Below are positions 1 to 15,607 of a DNA stretch of 26,119 nt, piece after piece. The first letter of the stretch is position 1. Each line of letters begins with the position of its first letter. Under the pieces are notes generated by a model. The model ran no database searches. It was not told where the DNA came from and saw only the letters and a list, made by a program, of their open reading frames with translations. Origin of the DNA: a virus; IMG/VR virus record IMGVR_UViG_3300031621_000031, positions 1 to 26,119 of that record; one strand, written 5' to 3'. Position numbers and translations under genes: made by a program.

Positions 1-165
1 TGTAATAGGATTAATTTTGCATTCTATTTTATTATCATAGATATATTTGCACAACATATACAACACTATTGCACTATCAGCGCCGCCGGATAACTTTATT
101 CCTATATTTTTATAATCTTGTGAAAAATTAAAAATTATTGTATCTTGGCTATTTTTAACTATCAT
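1..165 (-). CDS. PP-loop ATP pyrophosphatase, N-terminal part (runs off left edge)
   Basis: An open frame starts at ATG 165-163 and continues without a stop to base 1, giving 55 residues. Residues about 24-35 read KLSGGADSAIVL. This is the SGGxDS P-loop of N-type ATP pyrophosphatases (the fold of QueC, TilS, GMP synthetase and the asparagine synthetase synthase domain), preceded by a hydrophobic strand (IGI). Such enzymes adenylate a carboxylate, carbonyl or base before amide, nitrile or thiol transfer. The start overlaps the TGA of the upstream radical SAM gene in an ATGA junction, so it is translated as part of the same operon. Which subfamily it belongs to cannot be judged without the C-terminal part. 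The PP-loop call is seen directly; substrate and pathway are unknown. Confidence 0.8.
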   Translation of the reverse strand, partial: MIVKNSQDTIIFNFSQDYKNIGIKLSGGADSAIVLYMLCKYIYDNKIECKINPIT

Positions 166-1220
166 AGGTTTACTCTCTTTGTATTTTTGCCGTAACCACT
201 ACTAAACTCAAACTTGTTTCCGCAGGTCCTTCCACAAGTATATATTCTTTTATACTTGTCACTTTGATTGTTCCAGGATCTATCTAAGTAGGTAGCAAAA
301 AATTCATGTTCTAATACTTTCCAACCGTACTTACGCATATCATTGAAATCGTCGCCATACAATTTATATAAATTATCAAAACTCTTTCTTTGTGGATTAT
401 TAGGTCCAAAGTATGCAGGTGCTCCCATCCAAGTGCAAGGCCATAACCGCATTTGCATATCAATAAACACACTTTGTTCTTTTTTGTACTTACATACAAT
501 AGGTGTTTGCTCTATATACTGCTCAAAGCTATCATACGTTTTTTTAAGATTGTTCATATCACTTTGATTGTGATTGTTTTTTTTATCTTTTACAATACTA
601 CCTTTACGTGTTTTAATTTCTTTTTGTTGCTGTTCTGCAAACCTGCCTGTGTATTTGGCATTAAACTGTTTAAAGCCCATGTCTGTTGCCATTTGTTTTG
701 CAGTTTCAATTTGATGGTAATTATGTTCAAACTCAATAAAGTACCAACGAGCATTGCCGCCAGCGTCTATAAATGCTTGTGCATTAGCCATTATTTTATC
801 AAAGTTGCTGTTTACTCTGTACAAGTGATTAGTATCAGCTAACCCATCTATACTAAAGTTTACAGTGATACGATCACTTTTTTGTGCTAACTCTCTCCAC
901 CAAGCAGGGGTTCTAGCACTACCATTTACTGCCATTTTAAATTCTTTAACACCTTGACTTATGCTGTAGTCTATACTATCATCTAGTGTGGGACTTGCAA
1001 GACTGTCGCCAAAGTTACCACAATGAAATAGTTTTATTGTATTGGGTTCAAATGGCTCTAGTATAATTTTATAGTCATCTATAGTTGTATCATCTATAGG
1101 CATGTAAGGATTGAGTTCAGTCTGGCTGCCATGAAATCTAGCACACTGAGGACAAGCAAGTTGGCATCTGCTTGTGTGATCCATTTGTATTGTTTTAATC
1201 TCATTCAGATTCAGAAACAA
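162..1220 (-). CDS. Radical SAM protein with C-terminal SPASM/twitch-like cysteines (CGNxGD subfamily)
   Basis: This is a 352-residue radical SAM enzyme. The [4Fe-4S]/SAM motif is C19-x3-C23-x2-C26 (CQLACPQC). Where most family members have GGEP there is CGNFGD at residues 67-72. C-terminal cysteines C243, C262, C329 and C333 probably bind an auxiliary iron-sulfur cluster. It is clearly paralogous to the protein at 5309-6376: both carry FSxDGLxDTNHxYR, QAFIxAGGxAR, FEHNxHQ and TGRF, and their cysteines align. The start is TTG at 1220-1218. It keeps the first barrel strand (IKTIQ) and has AAAGGA 8 bases upstream; the first ATG, 12 codons later, would cut that strand. The gene overlaps the upstream gene by 20 bases. 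Radical SAM membership is firm; the substrate is unknown. Confidence 0.9.
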   Translation of the reverse strand: MFLNLNEIKTIQMDHTSRCQLACPQCARFHGSQTELNPYMPIDDTTIDDYKIILEPFEPNTIKLFHCGNFGDSLASPTLDDSIDYSISQGVKEFKMAVNGSARTPAWWRELAQKSDRITVNFSIDGLADTNHLYRVNSNFDKIMANAQAFIDAGGNARWYFIEFEHNYHQIETAKQMATDMGFKQFNAKYTGRFAEQQQKEIKTRKGSIVKDKKNNHNQSDMNNLKKTYDSFEQYIEQTPIVCKYKKEQSVFIDMQMRLWPCTWMGAPAYFGPNNPQRKSFDNLYKLYGDDFNDMRKYGWKVLEHEFFATYLDRSWNNQSDKYKRIYTCGRTCGNKFEFSSGYGKNTKRVNL

Positions 1221-2583
1221 CTTCGGTATCCTTTAACAACTCGTACAGCTCGGGTATAGACTTTTCTATACTATGTCCACGAATTTTATCTAATTTTCTA
1301 GTAGCTTTCCAAAACATAGGTATTGCTGCACTAAAATCTTTTGCATACATATAATCAACATATTGATCTAATAATCCTACAGCATCTCTGCGACTTGCTG
1401 CTTTGCGTTCTTCAGTGAAATCACTTTCGTCTATTATTTTAAGTAGTCTTGGTTTGTAATCTTCATACTTTTGTTTGATATGATCTTTAGCAAACTTAGG
1501 CAACATACGAATGTTATAAAATTTAGGGCCGTGCAACGGATGTGGTGTAATAATAGGACGCCACTCGTCGTCATTTACACGAGGTATTTTGTTTAGCAAT
1601 ATCCATTCCATAAACTCTGGAAAATGCAACACGTTAAAAACATTAATAGTTGCTGCTATCCAAACTTTAAAATTACCTTCTGCTTGACTTACTTTAAGTA
1701 AATTTTCGTGTATCTTATTAAAACGACTAGGAGGACGCATATAGTATTGTATATCGCCTACACCGTCGACGCTTGCACCTAAATTTACTTGTTTAAAGTG
1801 TTTCCAAATGTCCCAAGCACGTTGTGGTATATTTGTCATATTAGTATTGTATTCTACAATAATGTTTTTTGCACAGTCTTGGTCAACACATTTCTGTAAA
1901 AATTCGTAGTGTCTATCAATGATTAATGGCTCACCACCTACAATGTACAGTTTACGTATTTGATCTATGTTGTTGTCCATCTGTACCCAATAATGATCAC
2001 TTTCGTGCCAATTGTATAGGTCAGTTTCTGGCTCATATTTTCCTTTTGCATTTTTAATAAGTTTAACCTTACCGTGGCTGTCTTTATAACTATCACCCCA
2101 TAACTTAACTTGATCTTCGTACCACATACTACTATCAGTAGGGCCACACATTCGACATTTTAAATTACATAAGTTACCAAACCGCACATCATAAAAACTG
2201 CAATTTATTTCATCTTCTTCAATTGTACCGTCGGCTGCTGTTTTAGATAATAAATCTTCCCAATTAAATTCTCCGCGTTCAATCCAAATTTTATTTTCGT
2301 AATCAATACGAGCATTCATGCCCGATGACATTTCTGTTTGACAACGAACACATTCAGGATGCCATTTGCCTTCCATCATATACTTGCGTATTTCTTTTGA
2401 CAATTCGCTGTTACGTACTTTCTTAAGATCAGCTGTACGAGCATTATACTCTTTTCCGTCCTCATCGCGCAGTATACCGCCTGTCGGCCCGTGCTGTGCC
2501 TGACAACATACACGAATATCTCCGTTTGCTCTAAGGCTTTGACTCATCCACGGTACAGGACATAATGTTTCTAGTTTACTCAT
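1201..2583 (-). CDS. Radical SAM protein with N-terminal twitch domain
   Basis: This is a 460-residue protein in two parts. Residues about 1-85 hold an auxiliary-cluster cysteine set, C8-PVPW, C26-C27, C78 and C81, in the order normally seen in C-terminal SPASM/twitch domains. The radical SAM core follows, with C139-x3-C143-x2-C146 (CNLKCRMC) and GGEP at 216-219. The layout matches the family catalogued as twitch domain-containing radical SAM proteins. Paralogues in this window are at 2576, 3892 and 9909; the closest looks like 3892-5301, which shares the NWH insertion before the GGE motif. ATG 2583-2581 is preceded by GGAG at 7 bases and overlaps the upstream gene by 8 bases. The protein is probably a cytosolic modification enzyme; the substrate is not known. 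Confidence 0.9.
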   Translation of the reverse strand: MSKLETLCPVPWMSQSLRANGDIRVCCQAQHGPTGGILRDEDGKEYNARTADLKKVRNSELSKEIRKYMMEGKWHPECVRCQTEMSSGMNARIDYENKIWIERGEFNWEDLLSKTAADGTIEEDEINCSFYDVRFGNLCNLKCRMCGPTDSSMWYEDQVKLWGDSYKDSHGKVKLIKNAKGKYEPETDLYNWHESDHYWVQMDNNIDQIRKLYIVGGEPLIIDRHYEFLQKCVDQDCAKNIIVEYNTNMTNIPQRAWDIWKHFKQVNLGASVDGVGDIQYYMRPPSRFNKIHENLLKVSQAEGNFKVWIAATINVFNVLHFPEFMEWILLNKIPRVNDDEWRPIITPHPLHGPKFYNIRMLPKFAKDHIKQKYEDYKPRLLKIIDESDFTEERKAASRRDAVGLLDQYVDYMYAKDFSAAIPMFWKATRKLDKIRGHSIEKSIPELYELLKDTEVVSESE

Positions 2584-3895
2584 TTAAGTACTCCAAGTGT
2601 GGGAATGTTTTCCAGTAGTCTACGTTACGCAATTCGTTTAATTTGAGATAGTATTCTCTTGCTTTATTATTAAGTACATTGTCTATCCTAGTTTCTGCAG
2701 ACAATGCTTTTATAAGTCCTTGTATTGCTTTAGTTTCTCTTTTTTTATGTTTACTAGTATTACATAACCAACTACTTTTAATAAACTCTTCGAGATCAGC
2801 AATTTCTTGTTGTCTATAACTAAGTGGTACAAGTTCATGACGCATCCATTCTTTACCACGTACACTTGTAAATCCTAAATGAAAGCGTTCATTGTTAGTA
2901 CGATTACACATGTCATCAAAGTATTGTAGCATAGGAACTAGCCCTATACAATTAAGAGCTTGCAAACAAGTTTGTGTTACCATTTCCCATTCGTTGTGTA
3001 AGTTGTTTGAATTTTCTATACTAGTTATAACACTATCCCAATTAGTATGATAACGTATTAGTTCATCTTTTTCTTGTCCAGCATCAATACTAAAACGTAG
3101 TAGGCCGCCTTTGAAATGATTTAATAGATCTACTATTTCGTCTGTTATCAATGTTGCATTAGTGCTTATATCAAGACTAATATTTTTTGCATAATGTGTT
3201 TTAGCAATACTCCAAATAAAGTTAATGCTGTGTCTATCTGCAAATACCTCACCACCTCTAAACTCCATATACAATACATGTTCAAGGTTAGACATTATTT
3301 GTTCTTTAAAAAATTTACTTTGACTTAAATATTCTTCACCTGAACGTTTTGCAATATCTAAACTACCTTGCATTTGGTTTGTTATTTTATCGCCCCACTT
3401 GGAGTATTCTTTGTACATCATACTACTAAGATTAGGCGAACACATCACACAACTTAAATTGCATTTGGTGCTTAATCGTACTTCCCACCACTGTGGCATA
3501 ACATCCACATGACCATTTGCATCATAATACTTTTGTAAATGCGGTTTTACACGTTCTAAAAATCTTTTATTCTTACCAGTACGTTTACTTCCAAATCCAC
3601 TATTTTCCATTCTGTAACAGAATTCACAGTTACTAAGTTTTTCTCCGTTAAGCATTTTCATACGGAAGTCTTTCATAAAAGGACCATTCCATAAGTCTTC
3701 AATCTTATCTTTACTTAAATTATATACATTAGTGTCACTAGAATAAGTATTAGGAGTTATCTCGTCTAGAGTCATTTCTTTTGGAATACCATAGTCAATA
3801 CCTTCAATACTACAGCATACTCTAGCATCGCCCTTGCCCCTAGTGTTTAATTGTACAAAGGGAACAATGCAAAAGTTTTCTTCTTTTACATTCAT
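2576..3895 (-). CDS. Radical SAM protein with N-terminal twitch domain
   Basis: This is a 439-residue member of the N-terminal twitch radical SAM group. Auxiliary cysteines are C9 (CIVPF), C27-C28, C90 and C93. The core motif is C145-x3-C149-x2-C152 (CNLSCVMC). The GGE motif is atypical, RGGEV at residues 213-217, with valine in place of proline. It lacks the long insertion between core motif and GGE that contains NWH in the paralogues at 1201 and 3892, and is the most divergent of the four. ATG 3895-3893 has AAAGGA just upstream and forms a 4-base ATGA overlap with the preceding gene. Its stop overlaps the next start by 8 bases. The family call is firm; the reaction is unknown. Confidence 0.9.
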   Translation of the reverse strand: MNVKEENFCIVPFVQLNTRGKGDARVCCSIEGIDYGIPKEMTLDEITPNTYSSDTNVYNLSKDKIEDLWNGPFMKDFRMKMLNGEKLSNCEFCYRMENSGFGSKRTGKNKRFLERVKPHLQKYYDANGHVDVMPQWWEVRLSTKCNLSCVMCSPNLSSMMYKEYSKWGDKITNQMQGSLDIAKRSGEEYLSQSKFFKEQIMSNLEHVLYMEFRGGEVFADRHSINFIWSIAKTHYAKNISLDISTNATLITDEIVDLLNHFKGGLLRFSIDAGQEKDELIRYHTNWDSVITSIENSNNLHNEWEMVTQTCLQALNCIGLVPMLQYFDDMCNRTNNERFHLGFTSVRGKEWMRHELVPLSYRQQEIADLEEFIKSSWLCNTSKHKKRETKAIQGLIKALSAETRIDNVLNNKAREYYLKLNELRNVDYWKTFPHLEYLNE

Positions 3896-5301
3896 ATTAT
3901 GTCCTTTAGTATTGGAAATATCTCAGGAAATTTTTCTGTCCATCCTCGTTGTTTGTTAACTAAATTTATATATTCTTTTGTCTCTGGAAGTCTGGCACTC
4001 CAATCCTCACTGTTCATAAATCTTATAATGCCTTTAAAGCGTTTTATACCGTATGGTGCATTTAGCCATTGTTCCTTTGTAATACCTGCTTCTTCTACAC
4101 CAGTAAATAGTTGCCAGTTTTCTTCCATCCAAGGAAAAAATTCATTTTCGTATTTGTCTGTAATTTCTTTTTTAATGTGTGCAGGTAGCACTTTTACATT
4201 TAGTTGTGGTGGCCAATATGCAAAATGCATATTAATGCCGCCTGCCCCTAGAGGCCATTTGTTTAATTTTTTAAAACCTTGTTCAACTTTCCATTTTACA
4301 AACTCTGGTATGTAAGCTACGTTAAGTGCCATAATAGTAGTTGCTGTAGTAACTTCTACTTGTGGTGCTGTATTATCTAACATATGGAATACACGTTCTT
4401 GATGTTCCCAAGTACTAGGATAACGTATATAATCATTTTGCTCGCCAAATGCATCTATACTGTAGTGGAAACGCACACGCTTAAACTGTGCCCATAGATC
4501 AAATAAATCATCACGCCATTCTACAGCATTTGAATTATAACGTAGTTCCATATTCTTAGCATGTCCACGTTTAATACATTCTTCTAACAATTCATAGTGT
4601 TCATCAATAATTAAACTTTCGCCGCCTGCAAAATACAACTGATACATATGCGGGATTTGATCCATTAGGTCTGCCCAAAAACGGGGATTATTTTTGTGCC
4701 AGTTATAACTTGCCCCGTCATTACGACCTTTGTTTGTCCATTGACTTGTATTAGCAAGTTTCTCATTTTTCATTTGCGGAGTAATTGCTTTCCAGTCTTT
4801 AATCCATCCTGTTGAGTCATGTGGTGAACACATTACACATGCTAGTTGGCATTTACTTCCTAAACGTAAATCAATATATCTAATTTTTGGAGGTATACTT
4901 CCATCTTCTTTTGTTTCAGCTACTAATTCATCGATGTTAAATCTATTGCCCCAGTATTCAGTTTCCCAGTTACGTTTACTTAGATGACCCTGTTCTTCTT
5001 CTTTGTAACACTTGAGGCAACTAGCAGGCTTTTCGCCACGCAGCATCATTTTACGCACATTACGCATGTAGCCACTATTCCATGCTTCTTCTAATGTTGT
5101 ATGGTTGAAGTTAGCAGGAACGCCGTCATCGTTTTTAACTATTCCAACTTCGCCGCCACCTACTTTTTTATTTGAATCAGGATCTTGTACACTACTTGCA
5201 TTTGAAGTACAACATGTACGCATTTTGCCGTCTGGGCGGCTACTTAGATGCATCCACGGTAATGCACAAAATGTTTCTGATGGTAATATTTTATTGCTCA
5301 T
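3892..5301 (-). CDS. Radical SAM protein with N-terminal twitch domain
   Basis: Numbered from ATG 5301 this protein has 469 residues. Auxiliary cysteines are C12 (CALPW), C30-C31, C95 and C98; the core is C151-x3-C155-x2-C158 (CQLACVMC), with GGES at 226-229. The open frame extends to a TTG at 5337. I prefer ATG 5301 because it lies 7 bases after the upstream stop and leaves the short leader before the first cysteine seen in the three paralogues; the TTG has no Shine-Dalgarno and would overlap the previous gene by 29 bases. The ATG itself has only a weak Shine-Dalgarno. This junction is the only non-overlapping one in the 17-gene cluster. The protein is close to that at 1201-2583. Substrate unknown. 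Confidence 0.88.
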   Translation of the reverse strand: MSNKILPSETFCALPWMHLSSRPDGKMRTCCTSNASSVQDPDSNKKVGGGEVGIVKNDDGVPANFNHTTLEEAWNSGYMRNVRKMMLRGEKPASCLKCYKEEEQGHLSKRNWETEYWGNRFNIDELVAETKEDGSIPPKIRYIDLRLGSKCQLACVMCSPHDSTGWIKDWKAITPQMKNEKLANTSQWTNKGRNDGASYNWHKNNPRFWADLMDQIPHMYQLYFAGGESLIIDEHYELLEECIKRGHAKNMELRYNSNAVEWRDDLFDLWAQFKRVRFHYSIDAFGEQNDYIRYPSTWEHQERVFHMLDNTAPQVEVTTATTIMALNVAYIPEFVKWKVEQGFKKLNKWPLGAGGINMHFAYWPPQLNVKVLPAHIKKEITDKYENEFFPWMEENWQLFTGVEEAGITKEQWLNAPYGIKRFKGIIRFMNSEDWSARLPETKEYINLVNKQRGWTEKFPEIFPILKDII

Positions 5302-5308
5302 ACTGTAC

Positions 5309-6376
5309 TTATTTAAACTGTTCTGCAAAGGGATCAAACTCGGCGCCGCACTTCATGGCACATACTTTTAGTTTGCCGGTGCCGCAGCTGGGCTTATTCC
5401 AGCTTGCTTGTATGCTATCAAAGATGCCTGTGTCAAACACTGCCTCAAGGCCGTTACGTGCTTGTAAGGCGCTTATATCGGGTATAAAGTCCCATATTTG
5501 CTCTACCTTAGGATCTTTATGCCACCATTTATACATGCGTCCAGCAGTCCAGCAGCATGGCAGTGCTAATCCTTCTGCTGTTATGAATAAGCTATTATCT
5601 TTCTTTACTTTACAAATAATAGGAGCAGCATCATAATATGTATCCATAGTACCGTATTTCTTGAGGATCACCTCTTGCTTGGTAAGTGCTTTGTTCTGGT
5701 ACTTTGTGTCTGGCTTTTTAAGCTCGGCTGTATCTTTACCTTTGCGGTCTTTGGCTTGATGCTTTTCTTTTTTGTTTGTATTTGTATCTACAAATCTTCC
5801 TGTTTTCTTTTTCATAAATTTTTCACACCCCCATTTGTTAGCAAGTGCTTCTGCTTCTTCAACTTGGTGTTGATTATGCTCAAATATTAAATAGTCCCAA
5901 CGTGCTCTACCTCCGGCATTTATAAACGCCTGCATGTTACGTTCTATGTTATCCCAAACAACACCTTGACGATAGATATGGTTAGTATCGCGTAAACCAT
6001 CAACGCTAAAAATAACAGCCCCCATGCTGCCAAAAGTTATAGCTAAATCTTTCCACCATGCCTCATTTTTAGCTCCTCCGTTAGTATTCATGCTCAACCA
6101 CATATTAGGATTGTGTTCTCTAAAGTATTTGAAGATTTCTAATGTATCTTTAGCAACAATAGGATCACCTAAGTTGCCACACATATACATTGTTTTAAGC
6201 TGTGCAATAAAACTTGGTTTGAAGATTTGTTTACAGTCCTCAAGTTTAAGCTCGTCAAGATTGATATGTGGATTAATACCCTCACCGTTCATATTACGAT
6301 CACACATAGGACAACTTGCTTGACAGTTTTGTGTTACTTCAAGATGAATTGTTTTTATATCTTCAAGTGCGTACAT
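5309..6376 (-). CDS. Radical SAM protein with C-terminal SPASM/twitch-like cysteines (CGNxGD subfamily)
   Basis: This is a 355-residue paralogue of the protein at 162-1220. The SAM-cluster motif is C18-x3-C22-x2-C25 (CQASCPMC). CGNLGD at residues 66-71 replaces GGEP. C-terminal cysteines are C255, C274-C275, C331, C339 and C343; four of these align with the C243, C262, C329 and C333 of the paralogue. A lysine-rich stretch at about 195-225 separates the core from the C-terminal domain. ATG 6376-6374 has GGAG 5 bases upstream, and that signal lies inside the end of the preceding gene. Two copies of this subfamily in one operon suggest two related substrates or two successive steps. That is inference. 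Confidence 0.9.
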   Translation of the reverse strand: MYALEDIKTIHLEVTQNCQASCPMCDRNMNGEGINPHINLDELKLEDCKQIFKPSFIAQLKTMYMCGNLGDPIVAKDTLEIFKYFREHNPNMWLSMNTNGGAKNEAWWKDLAITFGSMGAVIFSVDGLRDTNHIYRQGVVWDNIERNMQAFINAGGRARWDYLIFEHNQHQVEEAEALANKWGCEKFMKKKTGRFVDTNTNKKEKHQAKDRKGKDTAELKKPDTKYQNKALTKQEVILKKYGTMDTYYDAAPIICKVKKDNSLFITAEGLALPCCWTAGRMYKWWHKDPKVEQIWDFIPDISALQARNGLEAVFDTGIFDSIQASWNKPSCGTGKLKVCAMKCGAEFDPFAEQFK

Positions 6377-7295: not shown

Positions 7296-8211
7296 TGTCT
7301 CTCCACTTAGGTATTCTTATGTCAGGTAAGCATGTACAGTAATTAGTGTTACAAACTACAGGATCATTAGGAATATGGTAACTTTCATCATATATATTTC
7401 CTATATTCATAGATTTTGCAGTACTACACTGTGCAAGACTTATATCTCCGTTGTGCCAAATAACAACTCGAGTTTTACCTAATGCACATTTCCAACCTTT
7501 AAAGTTGTGTTTGTTTTGTGATACTAATTCAAGTCCATATGAATAATGCTTCTTCTTACCATCAACAATTAAGTGTGTCGGAATGCCTTGTGCAATGTTA
7601 ATTTTAGAAGTATGATGTTTAAATGTTTTTATAAATTGTTTTTGCTCGTCGGTATATTCTTGTGCTAATCCGTCTAGTCCTCTAATAGGTTTTACAAATA
7701 TACTACACTCTAATTCTTTAAATTTATCTGCATAGTCTTGAATAAGATGAAAGTTTTTTTGATCAGCTAACAGCAACAAGGTTAAATTAGTTCGCTTGTG
7801 TAATAGTTTACCGACATTAAAAATATGTTCTAAACTTGCAAATTCTAAATGTGTACTAATTGCAACCCTTGCAAGATTATCATAATTATCTAATAGTTTA
7901 CTCCACCACTTTAGCGTTCTAGATCCGTTAGTCGTCAACTGTGTATAATAATTTTTGTCTAGTTCATTTAAAAATGGAATTAGTTTGGGCCATACAGTAG
8001 GTTCACCTCCGGTAAGGTTTAGTAACTTTGGACCCGGTTGTACTTCTTTATGTAAATAGTTAAAAAAGTCTAAAGCCTTGTAGTAATCAGGCTGTCCTGA
8101 ACTTCCACCGTATAGATCCTCCTGGCAGTAACTACAAGAATAATTACAAACATTACTTACTACCCATTCAATATTCATTCCATTAGGATTATCAGGAAAT
8201 ATACTTTTCAT
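7279..8211 (-). CDS. Radical SAM protein, short type, tandem copy 1
   Basis: This is a 310-residue radical SAM protein with C22-x3-C26-x2-C29 (CNYSCSYC), GGEP at 68-71, and C-terminal cysteines C242, C262, C287, C292 and C294. It is the tandem paralogue of the gene just downstream. Protein similarity spans the full length, but DNA identity is concentrated in the 31-base segment at the 3' end (PDIRIPKWR). The start ATG 8211-8209 overlaps the stop of the preceding small gene in an ATGA junction; only a weak AAGG lies upstream, so translational coupling is likely. The protein is predicted soluble, with no signal peptide or membrane segment visible. Substrate unknown. Confidence 0.9.
   Translation of the reverse strand: MKSIFPDNPNGMNIEWVVSNVCNYSCSYCQEDLYGGSSGQPDYYKALDFFNYLHKEVQPGPKLLNLTGGEPTVWPKLIPFLNELDKNYYTQLTTNGSRTLKWWSKLLDNYDNLARVAISTHLEFASLEHIFNVGKLLHKRTNLTLLLLADQKNFHLIQDYADKFKELECSIFVKPIRGLDGLAQEYTDEQKQFIKTFKHHTSKINIAQGIPTHLIVDGKKKHYSYGLELVSQNKHNFKGWKCALGKTRVVIWHNGDISLAQCSTAKSMNIGNIYDESYHIPNDPVVCNTNYCTCLPDIRIPKWRDNEKSY
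7298..7328. repeat. 31-base direct repeat, copy in radical SAM gene 7279-8211
   Basis: This segment is identical to 6379-6409. It encodes PDIRIPKWR and carries the GGAG ribosome site for the gene at 6363-7295. It marks a tandem gene duplication or later gene conversion. Confidence 0.85.
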
Positions 8212-8429
8212 TCAGATACTAACCTTACTTTTTTGCCGGGGCCTGTACGACTGGGCAAGTCACCATACTGATCTACATACCAATCTATTACAGCCTTATA
8301 CCAATTTTCGCTATTGTGATGTGCTTGTTTATTAAACTGATGTATGTTATTGTTTGTTGCTTGCATTGTACTCAAGGCTCTGGCGCTTTCCTTTTGTAGT
8401 TGTCGTAGGGTCAAATTACTTGTATCCAA
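8208..8429 (-). CDS. Small protein of unknown function (73 aa)
   Basis: I do not recognise this 73-residue protein. It is hydrophilic and looks mostly helical at the N-terminus (LTLRQLQKESARAL), then has an Asn/His/Gln-rich middle, an aromatic stretch (WYKAVIDWYVDQYGDLP) and a basic end (GPGKKVRLVSE). There is no cysteine. The only start compatible with the full frame is TTG 8429-8427, inside the end of the methyltransferase-like gene; the first ATG is at codon 22. The gene is held between that gene and a radical SAM gene by overlaps of 14 and 4 bases, so a role in the same pathway is plausible, as a carrier, chaperone or peptide substrate. That is speculation from position only. Confidence 0.6.
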   Translation of the reverse strand: MDTSNLTLRQLQKESARALSTMQATNNNIHQFNKQAHHNSENWYKAVIDWYVDQYGDLPSRTGPGKKVRLVSE

Positions 8430-9258
8430 TTCTCATAAACCTTGTATATTTAGGTAACTTTAATTCATTGTCATATAATATTTCTGTGAGCGGTGATTGA
8501 CTTGCAAAATCATCTAGATCATTTACACAATTAACATGTTCGTCGACTTCAAAGAAATTATTATTTTGTAATACAACTAGCTTACCAATAGGTATTTTTG
8601 CATACCATTCTGCAAAATTCTCAATGTGTTCACAACTTGTGTTTATAATAGTATCCGGACTATCAGTAATAGGGTAGCTCATTCTATTGTTAGCATTACT
8701 CCAATACTGCCAAACATGTTCGTTGTAATTAATATCCATAATATCTTGTGTTATACTTTTAAAACGCCACTCATCTACAAACCATGGTTTGTTAAATGTT
8801 TCAGCAATGTCTACACAAGACTCATCAATATCAAAAGATCTAACTTTATCTACTTTAATGTTACTTTCAAATAACATTGTAGCAAGGGTAGCATACCAAC
8901 CGGCGCAAAGGAATACTGTTCCTAAATCAACTTTAAGTTTACCTAGTTCTTTTAATAACCATAGTTTGCTTTCTAGTTGTCCTCTGCTAAAGCAATCGTC
9001 CCATATTTTAGTTTCATTAACAAAGAAGTTTTTAAACGCTGCAACAAACTGTGTTTCTACATAGCTGTCTAATATAGGCCATAATTTCCAAGTGTTATCT
9101 TCCATAACTAATTTACGTAAGTCTTCTTTATTATTATCGTTAACTAAACGAAAAATACTACTTAAATCTTTATCAGTATATGCTCTACGCAAATCAGATA
9201 GATTGCTGTTGTCAGCATACAACAATTCTAGTCTATCTAATAATTCAAACGTCTGCAT
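8416..9258 (-). CDS. Class I SAM-dependent methyltransferase-like protein
   Basis: From ATG 9258 this is 280 residues. A helical N-terminal third is followed by a Rossmann-type methyltransferase pattern: a glycine strand VFLCAGWYATLA at about 115-125 (motif I), then SFDID near 141-145 where the acidic residue would hold the SAM ribose, and PDTIINTSCEHI near 201-212 at the motif IV position. The methyl acceptor is unknown. The open frame has a TTG one codon earlier (9261); ATG 9258 is preferred, with AAGGGA 8 bases upstream. A NATAAATA late-type promoter motif lies 27 bases upstream of it, inside the preceding gene. The gene overlaps neighbours on both sides. The methyltransferase fold is inferred from these motifs and has not been tested by a profile search. 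Confidence 0.65.
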   Translation of the reverse strand: MQTFELLDRLELLYADNSNLSDLRRAYTDKDLSSIFRLVNDNNKEDLRKLVMEDNTWKLWPILDSYVETQFVAAFKNFFVNETKIWDDCFSRGQLESKLWLLKELGKLKVDLGTVFLCAGWYATLATMLFESNIKVDKVRSFDIDESCVDIAETFNKPWFVDEWRFKSITQDIMDINYNEHVWQYWSNANNRMSYPITDSPDTIINTSCEHIENFAEWYAKIPIGKLVVLQNNNFFEVDEHVNCVNDLDDFASQSPLTEILYDNELKLPKYTRFMRIGYK

Positions 9259-9916
9259 CAAATTGTTCCCTTAACCATTCAAAGTTATTTATTAACCCCA
9301 GATCAGCGCCATTAGAAAGCCCGTACTCCCTGCCAGCACAAGCACCTTTAATAGCATATTCGCCGAAGGGAGCATCTCCTCCCACTGTTGTCCATATTCT
9401 GAGTCTTTCATTTGTGTCTTCCTCGTTTTGTCTATCTATTATTTTACTTGCAAGTTTAGTACATTCTCTAAATGCACTACGCCATGTACTAAATTCATCT
9501 ACATTGAATGCAGTGATATTACTAACTTCTTCCATAAGCACAAATTTATCACTAATACTAGTAGTCATGTCTGGTTTACTAGTGTCCATATTAATAGTTG
9601 CATATCTTGGAAATAATTTTATTCCTCCGTATCCATACACTAGTCCATTTATAGGATTTTGGCTTCGCCACACATGTACTGCATCTCTATCTATACGGTT
9701 AGGCACATAAGAAAAATCAAAGGTATCAACAACATGTGCATCAGCATCAACTATCCATACCATTGGAGTAAATGCGTTTTTTGCAGCTTCTATATGAGCT
9801 TGATGTATTCCTTTTATGCCGTGTGTGCGTTTTGCATATGGAAATTTATCTTCTAATATTTTCCAATTTTTATCTGCTTCAACTTCGTTGTAACTTATAA
9901 ATGATATATCATACAT
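9245..9916 (-). CDS. Glycosyltransferase-like protein (GT-A type, paralogue of 11144-12067)
   Basis: This 223-residue protein begins with a strand (YDISFISYNE) and has an acidic metal-binding-like motif VDADA at 56-60, as in the DxD of GT-A glycosyltransferases. It shares with the protein at 11144-12067 the blocks AKRxHGxxG, the DxD region, NGLxYGxGGxKxxPR, WRxxFREgxK and an xGxDxxxGxxAIxGAxxG-like stretch, so the two are paralogues of different length. Most GT-A enzymes transfer a sugar from a nucleotide sugar; donor and acceptor are not evident here. ATG 9916 has no clear Shine-Dalgarno and overlaps the preceding radical SAM gene by 8 bases, which suggests coupled translation. The glycosyltransferase role is inferred from the fold-like pattern only. 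Confidence 0.6.
   Translation of the reverse strand: MYDISFISYNEVEADKNWKILEDKFPYAKRTHGIKGIHQAHIEAAKNAFTPMVWIVDADAHVVDTFDFSYVPNRIDRDAVHVWRSQNPINGLVYGYGGIKLFPRYATINMDTSKPDMTTSISDKFVLMEEVSNITAFNVDEFSTWRSAFRECTKLASKIIDRQNEEDTNERLRIWTTVGGDAPFGEYAIKGACAGREYGLSNGADLGLINNFEWLREQFDADV
9286..9293 (-). promoter_or_regulatory. Candidate internal late promoter motif (AATAAATA)
   Basis: AATAAATA on the minus strand lies 27 bases upstream of the methyltransferase-like ATG 9258 (24 bases before the TTG at 9261), inside the coding sequence of the upstream gene. The spacing matches the structural-gene sites. It could be a chance match in AT-rich DNA. Confidence 0.35.
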
Positions 9917-11147
9917 CAGGTGTATACGCCTTTTGTAGCATTTTTAATTCCGGAACGATATCATAAAACTGTTCTTTTCTTACACTGTCTACTTTTGCAG
10001 TCATTGTTACAAAGCGGTGTGCAGCTTTTGGATTATGATCCTTTGATAGTTCTGACATTATCTGCGTAAAATGTTTGCTAATATCAGTATTGTGTTTTTT
10101 ATTATAACTGCTTATAAACTTAGCAAGGCGTTTTCTAGTTTTGTTTTTAAATTTATCTGGTAGTATAGTTATATTATAGTGTAATGGCATCTCTATTAAA
10201 TTAAGAAAAAAGTTTTGATAACGTCTTTCACTATTAACAACGCCAATGTCTACTAGATGATTTATTATTTCAGGAAGTCTAAATACGTTCCAAGCACCTA
10301 CAGTTATACCAGGTTGTATTAATGTATTATCTAAAGTAGTCAATCTTTTTAAGTTAGCTTCAACTTTGCTCCACACAGTTCCAGAACGTATAAGCTCTGC
10401 TCTAGGACCTATTTCATCAATGCTTGGCCAAATTTCTAACTTGTCAGCGTTCCATTTTTTCCAATAATCAAATACATCTTTATTTTTATATGTAAATGTA
10501 GTGCAATTTGTGTTATATGATATCTTTACATCATGTCTATTGTTTTTATCTAACAGCTCAAGTATTTGCCAGTGTTCGTCCATCATTAACGGTTCGCCGC
10601 CAGCAAAATAAATTTTTTCAACAACATTAATTTGTTCGGTTAAGAAATCAAAGTTATTTGTATCATCAACAGAATTTATATTCCATACTTTGTCTTGATC
10701 TGAAATTAGTCCTAATTTTTTTGCATCTGGTACCCAAGCACTACTATACCTTGGTCCACAACTTCTACATTTAAGATTACAAAGATTACTAAATCTAAAG
10801 TCCCAGTAAAGTAAATTCATTTCTGAAACATGACCAGTTTCGTCAGTAATTTTAGGAATTCGCTCAAGAACTTTTGTAAATGCTCTATTATGATGTATAC
10901 GTCCGCTTAGTCCTGTTACACGTTCTTTGTTAAAACAAGTACTACATATTTTAGGTTGTTCACCATTGATCATCTGAAGGCGAAGTGATTTCATATTATC
11001 ACTGTTCCAAATTTCTTCAATAGAGTCTGTAGTTAAGTCACCTGCAAAATAATTATGCGTCGATGTTAAACAACAAGGAACTACTTTACCGTTTGGTTCA
11101 AAATTTAAATGCATCCACGGTATTGCACATATTGTACGAGTTTTCAT
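9909..11147 (-). CDS. Radical SAM protein with N-terminal twitch domain
   Basis: This is a 412-residue member of the N-terminal twitch group, set apart from the other seven radical SAM genes and lying between the two paralogous glycosyltransferase-like genes. Auxiliary cysteines are C7 (CAIPWMH), C25-C26, C68 and C71. The sequence between them (GDLTTDSIEEIWNS) is the typical spacer of SPASM/twitch domains. The core motif is C123-x3-C127-x2-C130 (CNLKCRSC), with GGEP at 183-186. It is the shortest of the four and closest to the family archetype. ATG 11147 forms an ATGA overlap with the preceding gene. Its position suggests action on the same glycan or glycosylated substrate as its neighbours, which is inference. 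Confidence 0.9.
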   Translation of the reverse strand: MKTRTICAIPWMHLNFEPNGKVVPCCLTSTHNYFAGDLTTDSIEEIWNSDNMKSLRLQMINGEQPKICSTCFNKERVTGLSGRIHHNRAFTKVLERIPKITDETGHVSEMNLLYWDFRFSNLCNLKCRSCGPRYSSAWVPDAKKLGLISDQDKVWNINSVDDTNNFDFLTEQINVVEKIYFAGGEPLMMDEHWQILELLDKNNRHDVKISYNTNCTTFTYKNKDVFDYWKKWNADKLEIWPSIDEIGPRAELIRSGTVWSKVEANLKRLTTLDNTLIQPGITVGAWNVFRLPEIINHLVDIGVVNSERRYQNFFLNLIEMPLHYNITILPDKFKNKTRKRLAKFISSYNKKHNTDISKHFTQIMSELSKDHNPKAAHRFVTMTAKVDSVRKEQFYDIVPELKMLQKAYTPDV

Positions 11148-12067
11148 TCCGGATCAATCACAAACTGTTGTTGAGGGCTACGACTAGGGTTTTGGTATAC
11201 TGTCTTTAAAAACTTGCTTTGTTGTGCATCTAAGGGCGTTACAGCAATAGGAATATCCATCTGTTGTTTTAACCTAACTCCGTAATCTTCACATGCTTCT
11301 AGTAAATCACTTTCATCTTGTACTTTATCTTTCCACAAGCTGTTTAGATATTCAAAGTCACGAACATTTACATAATCCCAATCAGTACACATTGTTTTGT
11401 AAAGTCCTTCTCTAGCACCGTATATAGCCCACAATCCGTTATCTACATCTGCTCCGGCCATTAACCATATCCAAAGTCTATGTAAATTTTTCCAATGTCC
11501 TTTTAGGAATTCTTCTTTGCTTACCCTTACTCCTTGATCTAGTGCCATCTTCACACCTTCTCTAAACCCTGCTCTCCAGGCTTGATGCGGAGTTTCATTA
11601 TTATAAACATAACTATAACAACTATTTTGTTGAATATAGTTTAGTTCCCAACAAAAATCTACTTGTGCTTTATCAGACTCTGCCGCTTCATGTGTTTTCA
11701 TTTCTAAAACAAATTTTCTTGGCCAGCATTTTAATCCACCATTGCCATACATAAGCCCGTTAATAACATTTTTTCCACACCAACTAATTACACTATTTTC
11801 TAAATCTGCATGTTCGTCAAAATTAAGTTCTTGTTGTAGGAATAATGGGTCAATTTGGTTATCACCATCTACTGTAATAAATCTATCAGTTTCACTTAGA
11901 TTAGCACAGGCTTTGTGTGCTGCATCTGAACCTTCTACACCGTGTACACGTTTTGCCCAAGGAACTTTACTACACAAGTCTGCGTAGTTTTTTTCTGCGT
12001 TAGGTTCATCATAGGACAGGTAGATAATATCGTAATCAATAATTTTCAATTTTCTCTCCGTATACAT
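11144..12067 (-). CDS. Glycosyltransferase-like protein (GT-A type, paralogue of 9245-9916)
   Basis: This 307-residue protein has the motif VDGDN at 66-70, in the place of the GT-A DxD, and shares AKRVHGVEG, NGLMYGNGGLKCWPR and WRAGFREG with the paralogue at 9245-9916. It has about 80 extra residues at the C-terminus. The start is uncertain. ATG 12067 has no Shine-Dalgarno and gives a 32-base overlap. A TTG at 12049-12047 has GGAG 6 bases upstream, gives 301 residues and better matches the paralogue, whose N-terminus aligns just after it. Glycosyltransferase function is inferred from the acidic motif, the strand-helix start and the two neighbouring sugar-transferase-like genes upstream. Confidence 0.6.
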   Translation of the reverse strand: MYTERKLKIIDYDIIYLSYDEPNAEKNYADLCSKVPWAKRVHGVEGSDAAHKACANLSETDRFITVDGDNQIDPLFLQQELNFDEHADLENSVISWCGKNVINGLMYGNGGLKCWPRKFVLEMKTHEAAESDKAQVDFCWELNYIQQNSCYSYVYNNETPHQAWRAGFREGVKMALDQGVRVSKEEFLKGHWKNLHRLWIWLMAGADVDNGLWAIYGAREGLYKTMCTDWDYVNVRDFEYLNSLWKDKVQDESDLLEACEDYGVRLKQQMDIPIAVTPLDAQQSKFLKTVYQNPSRSPQQQFVIDPE

Positions 12068-12587
12068 GTTCTATATGACTATTTGATGTTAGAATAGAAA
12101 CATTTTTATTTTTTACATTAGTACTTATTTTAATTTGTTTTGTACCTGCAAGTTCTTTTAGATTAATACTAAAGGTATCATGTAAAATAAATCGGTTGTT
12201 GCAGTCTACAATATAATATTCTTTTAAATAATCATTGCCAGCTAATAGTTCTTCACATGTTGAACTATTCATAAAGTTATTTACGACTAAACTTGAATTA
12301 GATTTAATAATTTGAATACAATCGTCTTGATGTGCTGTAGTTTTCTTTATGAGTCCTGCGTAGTGCTTATCCTCTACTTCTCCCTGGTATTGTTGTGGCA
12401 CAAGATCGTATTTGCCTTTTGTTCTAACGTCTTCTATAATTTTATAACTATTAAAATTTTTCTCACCTGAAATAAATTTTTCAACTTCATCAAAAGGTTT
12501 TGAAATATAATACTTTAACGTATCATTTATTTCGTTTGTTATACTAAGTATATTCTTAGTTTCGTTGTCAAAATATACATAAAACAT
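12036..12587 (-). CDS. Protein of unknown function (183 aa)
   Basis: I do not recognise this protein. It begins MFYVYFDNETKNILSITNE, a beta-rich start like small phage proteins that report a formatted value, and continues with alternating hydrophobic and charged stretches. It is lysine and asparagine rich and has no membrane segment. The frame is open to an ATG at 12608, but ATG 12587 is chosen: it overlaps the upstream stop by one base (TAATG) and has GAGGA 9 bases upstream, while the earlier ATG has no ribosome site. It lies among four glycosyltransferase-like genes, so a part in the same pathway is likely; its role is unknown. Confidence 0.7.
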   Translation of the reverse strand: MFYVYFDNETKNILSITNEINDTLKYYISKPFDEVEKFISGEKNFNSYKIIEDVRTKGKYDLVPQQYQGEVEDKHYAGLIKKTTAHQDDCIQIIKSNSSLVVNNFMNSSTCEELLAGNDYLKEYYIVDCNNRFILHDTFSINLKELAGTKQIKISTNVKNKNVSILTSNSHIEHVYGEKIENY

Positions 12588-13396
12588 TACACTTGTTCCT
12601 CTAGCCATTTTACTATATCGTCAGTCAAAAATTCATCTTCAACATAATGCAATACACCTGATTGTTTGTAACCATTTATAATTATTCCAGAATTACCTAT
12701 ATCAACCGGCAGTTTGTTTGTCCATTTAGTAGGTGGACTATTTAAATTTTGAACTCTAGGTTTCATATGTGTAAAAGATAACAAACTATCTTTGTGTAAT
12801 GTTTCACCTGCTATGCCTAATATTTTTAATGCTATTGCTACACTGACATCAACACTACACCAATTTTGAAAATGTTTAGGAGCATACTTTTCATAAAAAA
12901 CTTTCCAGTTTCTCATTATTATATCTAAAAGTACAAAGAACCTGTGTGTATTTTCACACTTTGAAAACTGATACATTCCTACATATACATCAGGTAAATT
13001 GTTGGCATCAAATGTTTTTCTATAATATCTGTTAGTAATTATTTCATTTCTATATGTTTTTACACTGTTAGTAAAAACTAGTTCATGACAGTTATTCCAA
13101 ACATAATCTATATTATCAAGAACTAACATATCCACATCAAATACAATAGTATTTCTATAAGGAGTTACGTGGTATACCTTCCAACGATTTTCAATCTTCC
13201 AATCATTATGTGCCATATCACTCCACGGTATAGGAATAATTTTATCAAATACATTGTATGGCACGTCATCATCGGTAATTAAACTTATATTTGTATTAGG
13301 TGACTTAGCAAGTATACTAAGTGCTAGTGCATATGCTTGTTTTACATAGTTTGTAGTTGAATTATTTTGTGCAATTAAACAAATACCATTACTCAT
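12587..13396 (-). CDS. Glycosyltransferase-like protein (GT-A, GT8-like, paralogue of 13389-14237)
   Basis: This 269-residue protein shows a GT-A layout: an N-terminal strand (GICLIAQNN), a YVKQAYALALSI helix, a SLITDDD strand, and the motif FDVDMLVLDN at 86-95 that matches the DxD metal and nucleotide-sugar site. Before it, RWKVYHVTPY followed by TIVFD resembles the stretch leading to the DxD in glycogenin-like (GT8) enzymes. The next gene upstream is a paralogue with the same start pattern (NNSxxxYxKQA). ATG 13396 has AAGGAG 10 bases upstream. Its stop overlaps the next start by one base. The family assignment rests on motifs, and donor and acceptor sugars are unknown. Confidence 0.65.
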   Translation of the reverse strand: MSNGICLIAQNNSTTNYVKQAYALALSILAKSPNTNISLITDDDVPYNVFDKIIPIPWSDMAHNDWKIENRWKVYHVTPYRNTIVFDVDMLVLDNIDYVWNNCHELVFTNSVKTYRNEIITNRYYRKTFDANNLPDVYVGMYQFSKCENTHRFFVLLDIIMRNWKVFYEKYAPKHFQNWCSVDVSVAIALKILGIAGETLHKDSLLSFTHMKPRVQNLNSPPTKWTNKLPVDIGNSGIIINGYKQSGVLHYVEDEFLTDDIVKWLEEQV

Positions 13397-14237
13397 TAGT
13401 AAACTCCTTATCTATAAAAGAATTTAAACTAAACTTGTTCATTACATGTGTAGTAGCACCTGTCAATTTTACAGCCGTATAGTCGTAATCTTGATGTGCT
13501 AACATCTTAATTTTACTACCTTTAGCATCTATTAGAATATCTTTATCTGTTGAAACCCACATATCACTCGGAAGAGTCGTTGGCCAGGGGCTGTCTTCAA
13601 CAAATCCTCGCATCATATGAACAGCAATACTAAATGCAAAATCATTCCTAAACTTTTTTTCTGTAATACTATACACTAACCTATAATAATTATAATTTTC
13701 TTTAATATGTTCTACTAAATTAAATACTTTTTTAGCAGTATCACTTTTAGTAAAATATAATATAGTTGCCCAGTACATAGGTATTGTACTATCACTTATT
13801 CTATCTAAATCGGCGTGTGATTTAGACTGATTTATTAAATTATAATCTTTTGCAATCATAAAATCATCTAGCATCGAAAAACAAGTCAATAATTTATCAT
13901 TACTAATTAACAAGTCAGTATCAATAACAATAGTTTTTTCAAAAATAGATAAATCATATGCATTAGTTCGTGCAGTATTTTTCCATTCTAATCTTTTGTT
14001 TGCATAAATTCCGTCATAAAACTTTTTTATTGACCCTTTTGGAGTAGGAGTATATGTAATTTCGTCAATGTACTTTTTATAAAACGGATATTTGGTCTCA
14101 ACGTAATCTACTGCATCTGTAATTAGTTGAACTGGTACCTTAAGATGTTCTTTAACACGCTTTGCACAATATATTGCCTGTTTGATGTAATCTATATCTG
14201 AGTTATTAAAAGCAAATAGAACTACGCCTTTGGTCAT
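13389..14237 (-). CDS. Glycosyltransferase-like protein (GT-A, GT8-like, paralogue of 12587-13396)
   Basis: This 282-residue protein has a strand-helix start (GVVLFAFNNSDIDYIKQAI), then VQLITDAVD, then IVIDTDLLISND at 103-114 with the DTD acidic motif expected of a GT-A glycosyltransferase. ARTNAYDLS just before it resembles the region that contacts the donor in GT8-like enzymes. Similarity to the downstream protein covers the first half and the DxD; the C-terminal halves have diverged. Its start forms an ATGA overlap with the small gene upstream and lacks a clear Shine-Dalgarno. The sugar and acceptor are unknown. Confidence 0.65.
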   Translation of the reverse strand: MTKGVVLFAFNNSDIDYIKQAIYCAKRVKEHLKVPVQLITDAVDYVETKYPFYKKYIDEITYTPTPKGSIKKFYDGIYANKRLEWKNTARTNAYDLSIFEKTIVIDTDLLISNDKLLTCFSMLDDFMIAKDYNLINQSKSHADLDRISDSTIPMYWATILYFTKSDTAKKVFNLVEHIKENYNYYRLVYSITEKKFRNDFAFSIAVHMMRGFVEDSPWPTTLPSDMWVSTDKDILIDAKGSKIKMLAHQDYDYTAVKLTGATTHVMNKFSLNSFIDKEFTNE

Positions 14238-14581
14238 AAGTTAATGAGCCCTTCAACTGATCTATTTTCTTTAATATCTGCGTAGTCTTTGGCATACTTT
14301 CTACTAGCAAAAATATACACACCTACAATATCTTTCATAAATTCTTTAGGATTATCAATAACCACAGGTATTTCATTATCATCTAAGATAATTATTTGTT
14401 CTTGATCGGTTTCTAAAAGAACAGACAGTAAATTTATAAGCTGTGTAGATGCTGTAAACTTATGTCCAAAAGCATAATGAATAAGATTATCTTTATATTG
14501 TTTTAGAAAAATACGTTTTTGATTATTTTGAGTTTCTAAGAAATTTGAAAACTCTAGGGCTTTTTCTAGTCGCTTGTCCAT
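14234..14581 (-). CDS. Protein of unknown function (115 aa), first gene of the operon
   Basis: I do not recognise this protein. It has a helical, charged N-terminus (residues 1-30), a middle with hydrophobic helices (STQLINLLSVLLE), a strand-like segment (QIIILDDNEIPVVI), and a helical end. There is no signal peptide. It is the first gene after the sigma70-type promoter at 14605-14633: ATG 14581 follows AAGGAG by 6 bases, and the predicted leader is under 20 bases. As first gene of the cluster it could be a regulator or a pathway protein, but there is no recognisable DNA-binding motif. The reading frame is well supported; the function is unknown. Confidence 0.7.
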   Translation of the reverse strand: MDKRLEKALEFSNFLETQNNQKRIFLKQYKDNLIHYAFGHKFTASTQLINLLSVLLETDQEQIIILDDNEIPVVIDNPKEFMKDIVGVYIFASRKYAKDYADIKENRSVEGLINL

Positions 14582-14589
14582 ACTGACTC

Positions 14590-14606
14590 CTTGTTAATAT
14601 AACAAG
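14590..14606. promoter_or_regulatory. Perfect dyad over the transcription start and leader (candidate operator 2)
   Basis: The arms CTTGTTA and TAACAAG are perfect inverse complements, 7 bases each with a 3-base centre. The site overlaps the last bases of the -10 box, the predicted start of transcription, and the first bases of the AAGGAG ribosome site. It could be an operator. A full RNA hairpin is less likely, because transcription should begin inside the left arm. Confidence 0.45.
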
Positions 14607-14633
14607 TATACACTCAAACTACTAGTTTGTCAA
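14605..14633 (-). promoter_or_regulatory. Sigma70-type promoter of the 17-gene operon
   Basis: On the minus strand TTGACA (14633-14628) is followed by a 17-base spacer and TATACT (14610-14605). The -35 box is a full consensus match and the -10 box matches at five of six positions. Transcription should start near 14598, leaving about 17 bases before ATG 14581. It is the only intergenic promoter of this type I see in the window, and it sits exactly between the structural genes and the radical SAM/glycosyltransferase cluster. It suggests recognition by host RNA polymerase early or mid infection. Confidence 0.8.
14614..14628. promoter_or_regulatory. Perfect dyad in promoter spacer (candidate operator 1)
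   Basis: The arms CAAACT and AGTTTG are perfect inverse complements with a 3-base centre. The site fills most of the gap between the -35 and -10 boxes, where a bound repressor would block polymerase. No protein is known to bind it. Confidence 0.45.
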
Positions 14634-14644
14634 GTATTAATTAG

Positions 14645-15574: not shown

Positions 15575-15599
15575 AATCTCTTTCCTTTAACTCTGCATA

Positions 15600-15607
15600 T
15601 ATTTATG
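15600..15607 (-). promoter_or_regulatory. T4-type late promoter motif (CATAAATA)
   Basis: The minus-strand sequence CATAAATA fits NATAAATA, the motif reported for gp55-dependent late promoters in marine T4-like phages (T4 itself uses TATAAATA). It lies 25 bases upstream of ATG 15574. No -35 box is needed for this class. Confidence 0.6.

Follow-up and report, generated by a model that had tools for sequence, protein, structure and literature searches.

A radical SAM and glycosyltransferase operon beside the tail fibres of a probably T4-type virus, with enzymes related to a Bdellovibrionota cassette

The IMG/VR virus record IMGVR_UViG_3300031621_000031, whose 26,119 bases form the window analysed here, carries beside its tail-fibre genes an operon of 17 open reading frames (ORFs) encoding eight radical S-adenosylmethionine (SAM) enzymes, four glycosyltransferase-like proteins, a methyltransferase and part of a PP-loop ATPase. 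This operon is a repeatedly co-occurring unit with a largely fixed core order. Sequence comparison indicates that it is composed of a virus-only core and of enzymes whose relatives form a cassette in cellular genomes of Bdellovibrionota. The best reading of this combination, offered tentatively, is a pathway that would build or decorate a glycoconjugate of the host envelope. The genes are referred to by family (Table 1): c115, c190 and c73 are small proteins, GT8 the two glycogenin-like glycosyltransferases, GTa and GTb the two GT-A-like ones, MT the methyltransferase, NTW, RSa and RSb three kinds of radical SAM protein, and s1 and s5 genes upstream of the operon.

GTa relatives are encoded at at least 589 places in IMG/VR; the operon is not rare. 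The GTa-seeded viral set comprises the best 80 of 589 such places, a second scan seeded with NTW gave 60 viral loci, and ORFs were called and clustered in 140 loci. These loci are related and some come from one contig, so the counts that follow are of non-independent events. Because the NTW-seeded loci were chosen by NTW, radical SAM rates are taken from the GTa-seeded set. The common viral layout is s5, tail fibres, s1, c115, GT8, GT8, c190, GTa and then a variable arm, which contains NTW, GTb, MT, c73, RSa and RSb in numbers and orders that vary between loci. Across 81 GTa-seeded loci, GT8 is found in 78 and c115 in 73; 70 include s1 or tail-fibre genes, 57 at least one radical SAM gene and 42 MT. 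The gene s1 lies directly before c115 in 68 of them, c115 comes before GT8 in 73, the two GT8 genes follow each other in 74, and c190 comes before GTa in 57. Radical SAM genes are absent from the covered stretch in 24, most of which have the core; some loci are cut short. When loci with c115 from both scans are pooled (n=87), 64 have at least one radical SAM gene and the maximum is 10. The first-pass annotation had considered the density of such genes unusual for a phage, a view not supported here: most GTa-seeded loci have at least one, and the T4-like marine environmental genome TARA_ERS488813_N000010, which resembles the window in its large radical SAM gene set, has 12 according to the part of its description covered here (PMC5332604). 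The same annotation had made a coherent pathway depend on co-occurrence of the genes elsewhere and on conserved active-site residues; they do recur together in viral loci, with their catalytic motifs kept.

The virus is aquatic and probably of T4 type, judging from the company the genes keep: in 12 contig fragments taken from the scans with NTW and GTa, the Gp23 major capsid protein (PF07068) is present on 3, and two of these (L072 and L143) have the core. In 50,697 phage records, tblastn gave no match for GTa (including a second GTa from L143), GT8 or c115, and matched NTW in three records, RSa in one and MT in one; megablast of the window against phage records gave no match. In another type of viral arm, found in L061, L062 and L063, NTW stands with a UDP-glucose dehydrogenase-like gene, without the GT8/c115 core in the stretch covered.

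The neighbourhood of the operon suggests one alternative, in which the tail fibres encoded immediately upstream are the target of both glycosylation and radical chemistry, and receptor binding is thereby altered. The frequency of s1 or tail-fibre genes in the GTa-seeded loci, and of s1 directly before c115, speaks for virion decoration, as do the loci that keep the core without radical SAM genes in the stretch covered and the occurrence of the SunS/ThuS peptide glycosyltransferases among the fold neighbours of GTa. The promoters of the two gene groups, however, are of different types.

The single strong promoter seen in the first-pass annotation lies at 14633-14605 (TTGACA-17-TATACT). It ranks first among the 41 sigma-70 sites in 13000-26119 and is conserved upstream of c115 in relatives. 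Shuffled sequences yield about 56 sites of any quality, more than the 41 found, so the weight of this promoter rests on its conservation. After removal of identical regions and of regions cut by a contig end, the 87 c115 loci gave 76 distinct upstream regions; 47 of these score at least 11 of 12 for sigma-70, where mononucleotide shuffles give 0.4, and two have the late motif NATAAATA (3.6 in shuffles). Upstream of the tail genes, in contrast, NATAAATA is found at 14 of 18 s5 genes and 48 of 144 tail-fibre genes, none with a sigma-70 site, and at 24 of 89 s1 genes, with sigma-70 sites at three. ORF starts were called mechanically, so that some upstream regions are shifted. Inside the operon, sigma-70 sites of the same level precede 17 of 148 GTa, 2 of 41 RSb and 1 of 202 NTW genes and none of the others; the tail-bearing loci have 88 such sites among 1354 ORFs, of which 47 are at c115 and 16 at GTa. 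Two clusters on the opposite strand of core-only loci, 36 and 48, have them at 8 of 9 and 7 of 8 genes. By class of locus, a score of at least 11 is reached by 37 of 55 c115 upstream regions in radical SAM-bearing loci, 5 of 12 in core-only loci and 5 of 9 further regions; five other core-only regions of the 12 carry GATAATTA.

In the window, late-type CATAAATA or GATAAATA lies 19-26 bases ahead of s1, the next tail-fibre gene and s5. A scan of the window allowing one mismatch gave 95 late-motif sites where 107 were expected, a count uninformative by itself; the case for a separate promoter rests instead on the position of the motifs before start codons in many loci. Since c115 has a sigma-70-type site while the tail genes carry the late motif, the operon is probably a host-polymerase unit nested behind late genes and transcribed separately and early. 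For pelagimyophages, middle and late promoter prediction is reported to have failed in the part of the published account covered here (PMC7029224).

Two further observations concern the c115 upstream region. The promoter contains a perfect 7-base inverted repeat, CAAACTA-G-TAGTTTG (14615-14629), which overlaps the end of the -35 box and is a possible operator; close relatives (L010, L011, L071) have altered forms of it. Some core-only viruses (L112, L126, L128, L130, L135, L141) have a AGATAATTA-type sequence before c115 and no sigma-70 site, perhaps another promoter class.

A GTa scan of bacterial genomes gave 25 loci. L150-L153, L155-L157, L160 and L167 have tail or core genes and are virus-like, though binned into bacterial or archaeal metagenome-assembled genomes; L173 and L174 share contigs with L150 and L157. 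The 13.5-kb contig L154 matches viral GTa at 95% but lacks a tail gene. The virus-like copies sit in records named Neomarinimicrobiota, Rickettsiales, Gammaproteobacteria, Rhodobacteraceae and Bdellovibrionales, and because these names are mixed no host is claimed for the virus. In L158, L159, L161, L162, L169 and L170, varying subsets of NTW, RSa, RSb, MT and PP-loop-type genes lie near GTa, and nothing in these loci matches the tail or core clusters; the record names are Bdellovibrionia, Bdellovibrionales, Bdellovibrionaceae, Halobacteriovoraceae or Bacteriovoracaceae. In L171 GTa stands alone, and RSa, RSb, NTW, GTb-like, MT and PP-loop genes cluster elsewhere in the same genome (L177, L178). 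GTa without a radical SAM arm in the covered stretch is found in L163-L166 and L168 (Tateyamaria, Ruegeria and Cribrihabitans records) and in L172 (Parvibaculum).

These Bdellovibrionota cassettes share the NTW, RSa, RSb, GTa, MT and PP-loop families with the window, and the best identities to window proteins are 59% for the NTW protein termed NTW-III, 48% over 194 amino acids (aa) for MT, 47% for one RSa, 44% for GTa and 43% for GTb and one further NTW. They differ from the viral operon in their neighbours, which include GT2 genes and, at one locus, a PMT_2 gene; tail-fibre genes, c115, GT8, c190 and c73 were not seen in the loci examined. The NTW-III tree places its 24 viral rows together (100/99), with Bdellovibrionota rows as weakly supported adjacent branches (83/29, 87/86), a topology that points to neither direction of transfer.

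Co-occurrence was counted in 191 genomes of the phylum to which the genome of L169 (G001) belongs. GTa is present in 11 of them, the cassette's 386-aa RSb in 11, and NTW-III at 51% identity or more (51-61%) in 10, one of which has it on a virus-like contig; there were 11 matches, and G005 reaches only 34%. MT gave 16 matches at E 1e-10, reduced to 12 genomes at E 1e-45 or better, a cut-off chosen once the matches were known. All four families occur in 7 genomes and any of them in 14, and the pairwise hypergeometric p values are 8e-16 to 2e-10, optimistic because the genomes are related. With all 16 MT genomes, MT overlaps 11 of 11 RSb, 10 of 10 NTW-III and 10 of 11 GTa genomes (p ≤6e-12). In G169 the GTa, NTW-III and RSb matches are on a virus-like contig, and the same contig has the only GT8 and c115 found in the 191 genomes. 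The reading of the operon as two layers follows from this pattern, in which four families largely co-occur in cellular genomes while GT8 and c115 are confined to a virus-like contig.

The cassette also bears on two alternatives. Relatives of GTa, MT, RSa, NTW and the PP-loop protein occur in Bdellovibrionota without adjacent tail-fibre genes, c115 or GT8; this, together with the sigma-70-type rather than late promoter, weakens the tail fibres as a target, and virion decoration, though the main alternative, is regarded as unlikely. It may instead be that there is no single pathway, and that the region is a hypervariable island gathering unrelated auxiliary genes by recombination. Arm content and order do differ strongly between loci, and a published island of this kind is called hypervariable in the part of the paper covered (PMC7029224). 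However, the core order is largely fixed, and the four families co-occur in cellular genomes with p ≤3e-9 even without G169 (again optimistic), which makes a chance assembly improbable.

Several other features of the cellular loci were noted. A Bdellovibrionia contig (G003:C1:745513-774880; L175, L176) has 13 NTW genes over the family cut-off in about 29 kb, and G011 (L181, L182) has a near copy of this array. HTTM-like membrane genes lie near NTW clusters in L162, L169 and L178; one (L169:18850-19731) scores 25.5 bits, below the Pfam cut-off, and the rest were recognised by eye. Twin-arginine-like signals, also judged by eye, stand at the start of two small ORFs, L169:7421 and L162:16192.

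The eight radical SAM cores reported from the window alone hold up on profile comparison. All eight proteins match PF04055 (E 5e-13 to 4e-7), with the cut-off passed by six in a six-frame search (one only with neighbouring matches) and by four in a whole-protein scan, and CxxxCxxC is kept in 247/247 NTW, 75/75 RSa and 53/53 RSb cluster members of at least 250 aa. The window has four NTW proteins, with an N-terminal twitch/SPASM region, two RSa proteins (352 and 355 aa) and two RSb proteins (310 aa). The four NTW proteins are members of the NF033640 twitch-domain family, passing its 170-bit cut-off (scores in Table 1), and the other four fall below it. To our knowledge no reaction is assigned to this family, and NTW-III had no phmmer match among PDB sequences. 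For RSb, the label of prokaryotic viperin was rejected (44 and 43 bits against the NF038283 cut-off of 180), though it is the best NCBIfam match.

The count of four glycosyltransferase-like proteins is likewise borne out, two being GT8-like by profile and two GT-A-like. The family profile of the GT8-like proteins matches glycogenin (E 1e-9), limited to profile positions 13-109, and their DxD (D87/D89) is invariant; as single sequences they have no Pfam, NCBIfam or PHROG match, and one searched against PDB sequences with phmmer gave none. The predicted model of GTa (pLDDT 89) has a GT-A fold, with a structural match of Z 10.3 over 141 residues (3.0 Å), although scores of 8-9 are also reached by nucleotidyltransferases of this superfold; GTa has no Pfam or NCBIfam match. 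GTb is 32% identical to GTa in their alignment and keeps the same D-x-D. The methyltransferase assignment is supported by a model (pLDDT 88.6) of class I SAM-methyltransferase fold (Foldseek E 9e-8; 615 PDB matches with E of at most 0.001), with no match to MT in Pfam, PHROG, NCBIfam or, by phmmer, PDB sequences.

The PP-loop ATPase is upheld in part. The SGGADS motif is present, and there is a longer relative in L057, but the window gene, truncated by the contig end, is only a 55-aa fragment. The full ORF in L057 (222 aa) barely reaches the Pfam QueC cut-off (22.1 versus 22 bits), and a second relative scores 27.0 bits. These scores, together with QueE-like PHROG matches of the RSb proteins, would fit a nucleotide or DNA modification, in which a QueC-like PP-loop protein and a QueE-like radical SAM enzyme make a base that the glycosyltransferases glycosylate. 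However, both labels were rejected against the NCBIfam equivalogs, three PP-loop relatives scoring 15-23 bits where QueC has a cut-off of 150 and RSb 25-27 bits where QueE has one of 206. Judged on these two genes of the pathway, a modified nucleotide is the weakest of the products first proposed, and very improbable.

A modified peptide is another candidate product: SPASM/twitch enzymes would mature c73, c115 or an unseen precursor, by cross-linking or epimerisation, and the glycosyltransferases and MT would tailor it. Most characterised SPASM radical SAM enzymes act on peptides, MT immediately precedes c73 in 19 of the 81 GTa-seeded loci, and protein N-terminal methyltransferases are among the fold neighbours of MT. 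Against this, conservation in c73 runs through most of the protein, with neither a conserved Cys nor a leader/core split (27 distinct sequences), the Bdellovibrionota loci examined gave no c73, and c115 occurs in the 191 genomes only on a virus-like contig; a peptide product is accordingly doubtful. The protein c73 has no Pfam or PHROG match, and its strongly conserved motifs are ATNNNI..FNK.AHHNS..WY and YG.LPS..GPG.

There remains the envelope glycoconjugate, which is favoured because there are four glycosyltransferases, because other arms hold partners of glycan type and because GT2 genes and one PMT_2 gene lie near the cellular cassettes. Some arms hold a UDP-glucose/GDP-mannose dehydrogenase, an epimerase or a carbamoyltransferase, each identified on one cluster member; of the 81 GTa-seeded loci, 10 have the dehydrogenase cluster and 4 the carbamoyltransferase cluster. 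(A further cluster, 85, suspected to be an amidinotransferase, gave no Pfam match and was dropped.) Of the first-pass idea of a pathway that builds or modifies something, the co-occurring unit and its kept motifs stand, with a cell-surface glycan now preferred to tail fibres, a peptide and nucleotides. From the observed gene content, order, promoter motif, predicted folds, catalytic motifs and co-occurrence we infer timing, substrate, envelope location and benefit as follows. The first layer would be the virus-specific core of c115, two GT8-like enzymes and c190, ending in GTa; the second would be an exchangeable arm of NTW, RSa, RSb, a second GT-A enzyme, the methyltransferase and the PP-loop ATPase. 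The GT8 and GT-A enzymes might move sugars from host nucleotide-sugars onto a cytoplasmic acceptor, the radical SAM enzymes, methyltransferase and PP-loop ATPase might make or modify the sugar or the acceptor, and the product would be carried to the envelope by host machinery, where the changed surface may exclude other phages or disguise the infected cell.

A number of points weigh against this proposal. The nucleotide-sugar enzymes are found in a minority of arms and not in the window. No clear membrane span was seen in the operon proteins, the top 19-residue hydropathy being 1.63 in one GT8-like protein, so export would rely on the host. Peptides are commoner substrates of SPASM/twitch radical SAM enzymes than sugars. 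The cellular loci are metagenome-assembled genomes throughout, and the 386-aa RSb of the cassette is distant from the two RSb of the window (24-27%). NTW-III was not found at E 1e-60 in 398 genomes of the phylum of Ruegeria (G007), which we take to be Pseudomonadota, although the same query matched the 191-genome set; a tie to ordinary O-antigen loci therefore lacks support. Finally, none of the scored motifs is present in 13 of the 55 radical SAM-bearing c115 upstream regions, and the early timing derives from the motif, with read-through from late promoters possible. A more far-reaching version of the glycoconjugate proposal would have an undescribed radical SAM and glycosyltransferase pathway for a hypermodified envelope glycoconjugate common to aquatic viruses and predatory Bdellovibrionota: the virus would turn the pathway on early to conceal the infected cell, or give it a new coat, against competing phages and perhaps also against predators that recognise this surface, and the predators would use the pathway on their own envelope. 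In this full form it is a long shot.

Among known systems, the closest setting is the host recognition cluster (HRC) of pelagimyophages and cyanomyophages, described in the part of the paper covered as a hypervariable island in the structural region beside the tail fibres with GT8 genes and, in some cases, radical SAM cassettes; O-chain modification was proposed for these tail-fibre islands (Zaragoza-Solas et al. 2020, PMC7029224). The window resembles it in having GT8 and radical SAM genes in a tail-fibre neighbourhood but differs, as far as that account goes, in the largely fixed c115-GT8-GT8-c190-GTa core and the conserved sigma-70 promoter. Clusters of the pelagimyophage type are flanked by VrlC on one side and gp14 on the other; on the left the window stops within the PP-loop gene. 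No window protein matched VrlC of HTVC008M by tblastn at E 0.01; the gene at 21771-26105, cut at the contig end, weakly matches (E 4e-4) an HTVC008M gene annotated Hc2, two genes before VrlC. Pelagibacter phage Mosig EXVC030M has MoaA-like proteins, a carbamoyltransferase, an aminotransferase and a methyltransferase matching the MT profile (E 1e-44) next to its tail fibres, but in the 20.5 kb examined it has no GTa, GT8, c115, c190 or c73 and no match to the NTW of the window. Profiles of GTa, GT8, c115, c190 and c73 had no match in the stretches of HTVC008M, Mosig and K566 examined. Vibrio phage K566 (and K567) has its own cluster of NTW-like radical SAM genes (L069 11965-18701) with unannotated neighbours.

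Radical SAM and glycosyltransferase genes have been counted among viral auxiliary genes (PMC7150976), and viral radical SAM contigs are mentioned elsewhere (PMC9301287), in the parts of these papers covered. Searches of the open-licence literature gave no description of the Bdellovibrionota cassette, of the fixed core or of its conserved sigma-70 promoter. The conserved c115 promoter and the Bdellovibrionota cassette thus appear to be new, while radical SAM-rich T4-like genomes and GT8/radical SAM islands are already in print. The radical SAM genes of ocean viruses have so far been counted without a known task. A largely fixed operon with its own conserved promoter, defined partners and cellular counterparts that tend to come and go together turns 'many phage radical SAM genes' into a pathway accessible to expression and assay, and its product can also be sought in cells that have the Bdellovibrionota cassette. 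The operon also argues that genes adjoining tail fibres need not serve the tail, promoter type setting them apart.

Table 1. Positions of the operon, its promoter and the neighbouring genes in the window
Feature	Position	Strand	Basis or remark
PP-loop ATPase, N-terminal 55 aa only (SGGADS)	1..165	-	cut at contig end; 47% match in L055-L057/L068
RSa-type radical SAM, C-terminal Cys-rich (SPASM-like by eye)	162..1220	-	
NTW, N-terminal-twitch radical SAM	1201..2583	-	NF033640, 361 bits; 43% to Bdellovibrionota L162
NTW radical SAM	2576..3895	-	NF033640, 276 bits
NTW-III radical SAM	3892..5301	-	NF033640, 423 bits; ATG 5301, TTG 5337 alternative start
RSa-type radical SAM	5309..6376	-	47% to Bdellovibrionota L159
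RSb-type radical SAM, 310 aa	6363..7295	-	
RSb-type radical SAM, 310 aa	7279..8211	-	
c73, 73-aa conserved small protein, frequently adjoining MT	8208..8429	-	
MT, class I SAM-dependent methyltransferase fold	8416..9261	-	predicted model
GTb, short GT-A glycosyltransferase-like protein	9245..9916	-	alignment with GTa
NTW radical SAM	9909..11147	-	NF033640, 368 bits
GTa, GT-A-fold glycosyltransferase, invariant DxD (D67, D69)	11144..12067	-	predicted model
c190, fast-evolving protein, function not assigned	12036..12608	-	
GT8-like glycosyltransferase (glycogenin-like), invariant DxD	12587..13396	-	profile
GT8-like glycosyltransferase, second copy	13389..14237	-	profile
c115, first gene of the operon, 115 aa, function not assigned	14234..14581	-	
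Sigma-70-type promoter TTGACA-17-TATACT, kept upstream of c115 in relatives	14605..14633	-	
s1, gene ahead of the operon, probably structural (by position; no family match)	14645..15574	-	
Late-type motif CATAAATA, 26 bases upstream of s1	15600..15607	-	
Tail-fibre-like gene; GATAAATA at 17155-17162	15613..17130	-	
Virion structural/tail-fibre-like gene	17176..19107	-	
Tail collar fibre protein (PF07484)	19113..21128	-	
s5, phrog_11259; GATAAATA at 21765-21772	21132..21746	-	

The main genes of the window all read leftward, and from right to left their order is a large virion gene, s5, three tail-fibre-like genes, s1 and then the 17 ORFs, which run to the left edge (1-14581). ORF calling gives the same gene count, overlaps and lone gap as the first-pass annotation: all 17 are on the minus strand, and neighbours overlap by 4-32 bases except at 5302-5308. 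This 7-base gap depends on NTW-III starting at its ATG and not at the upstream TTG.

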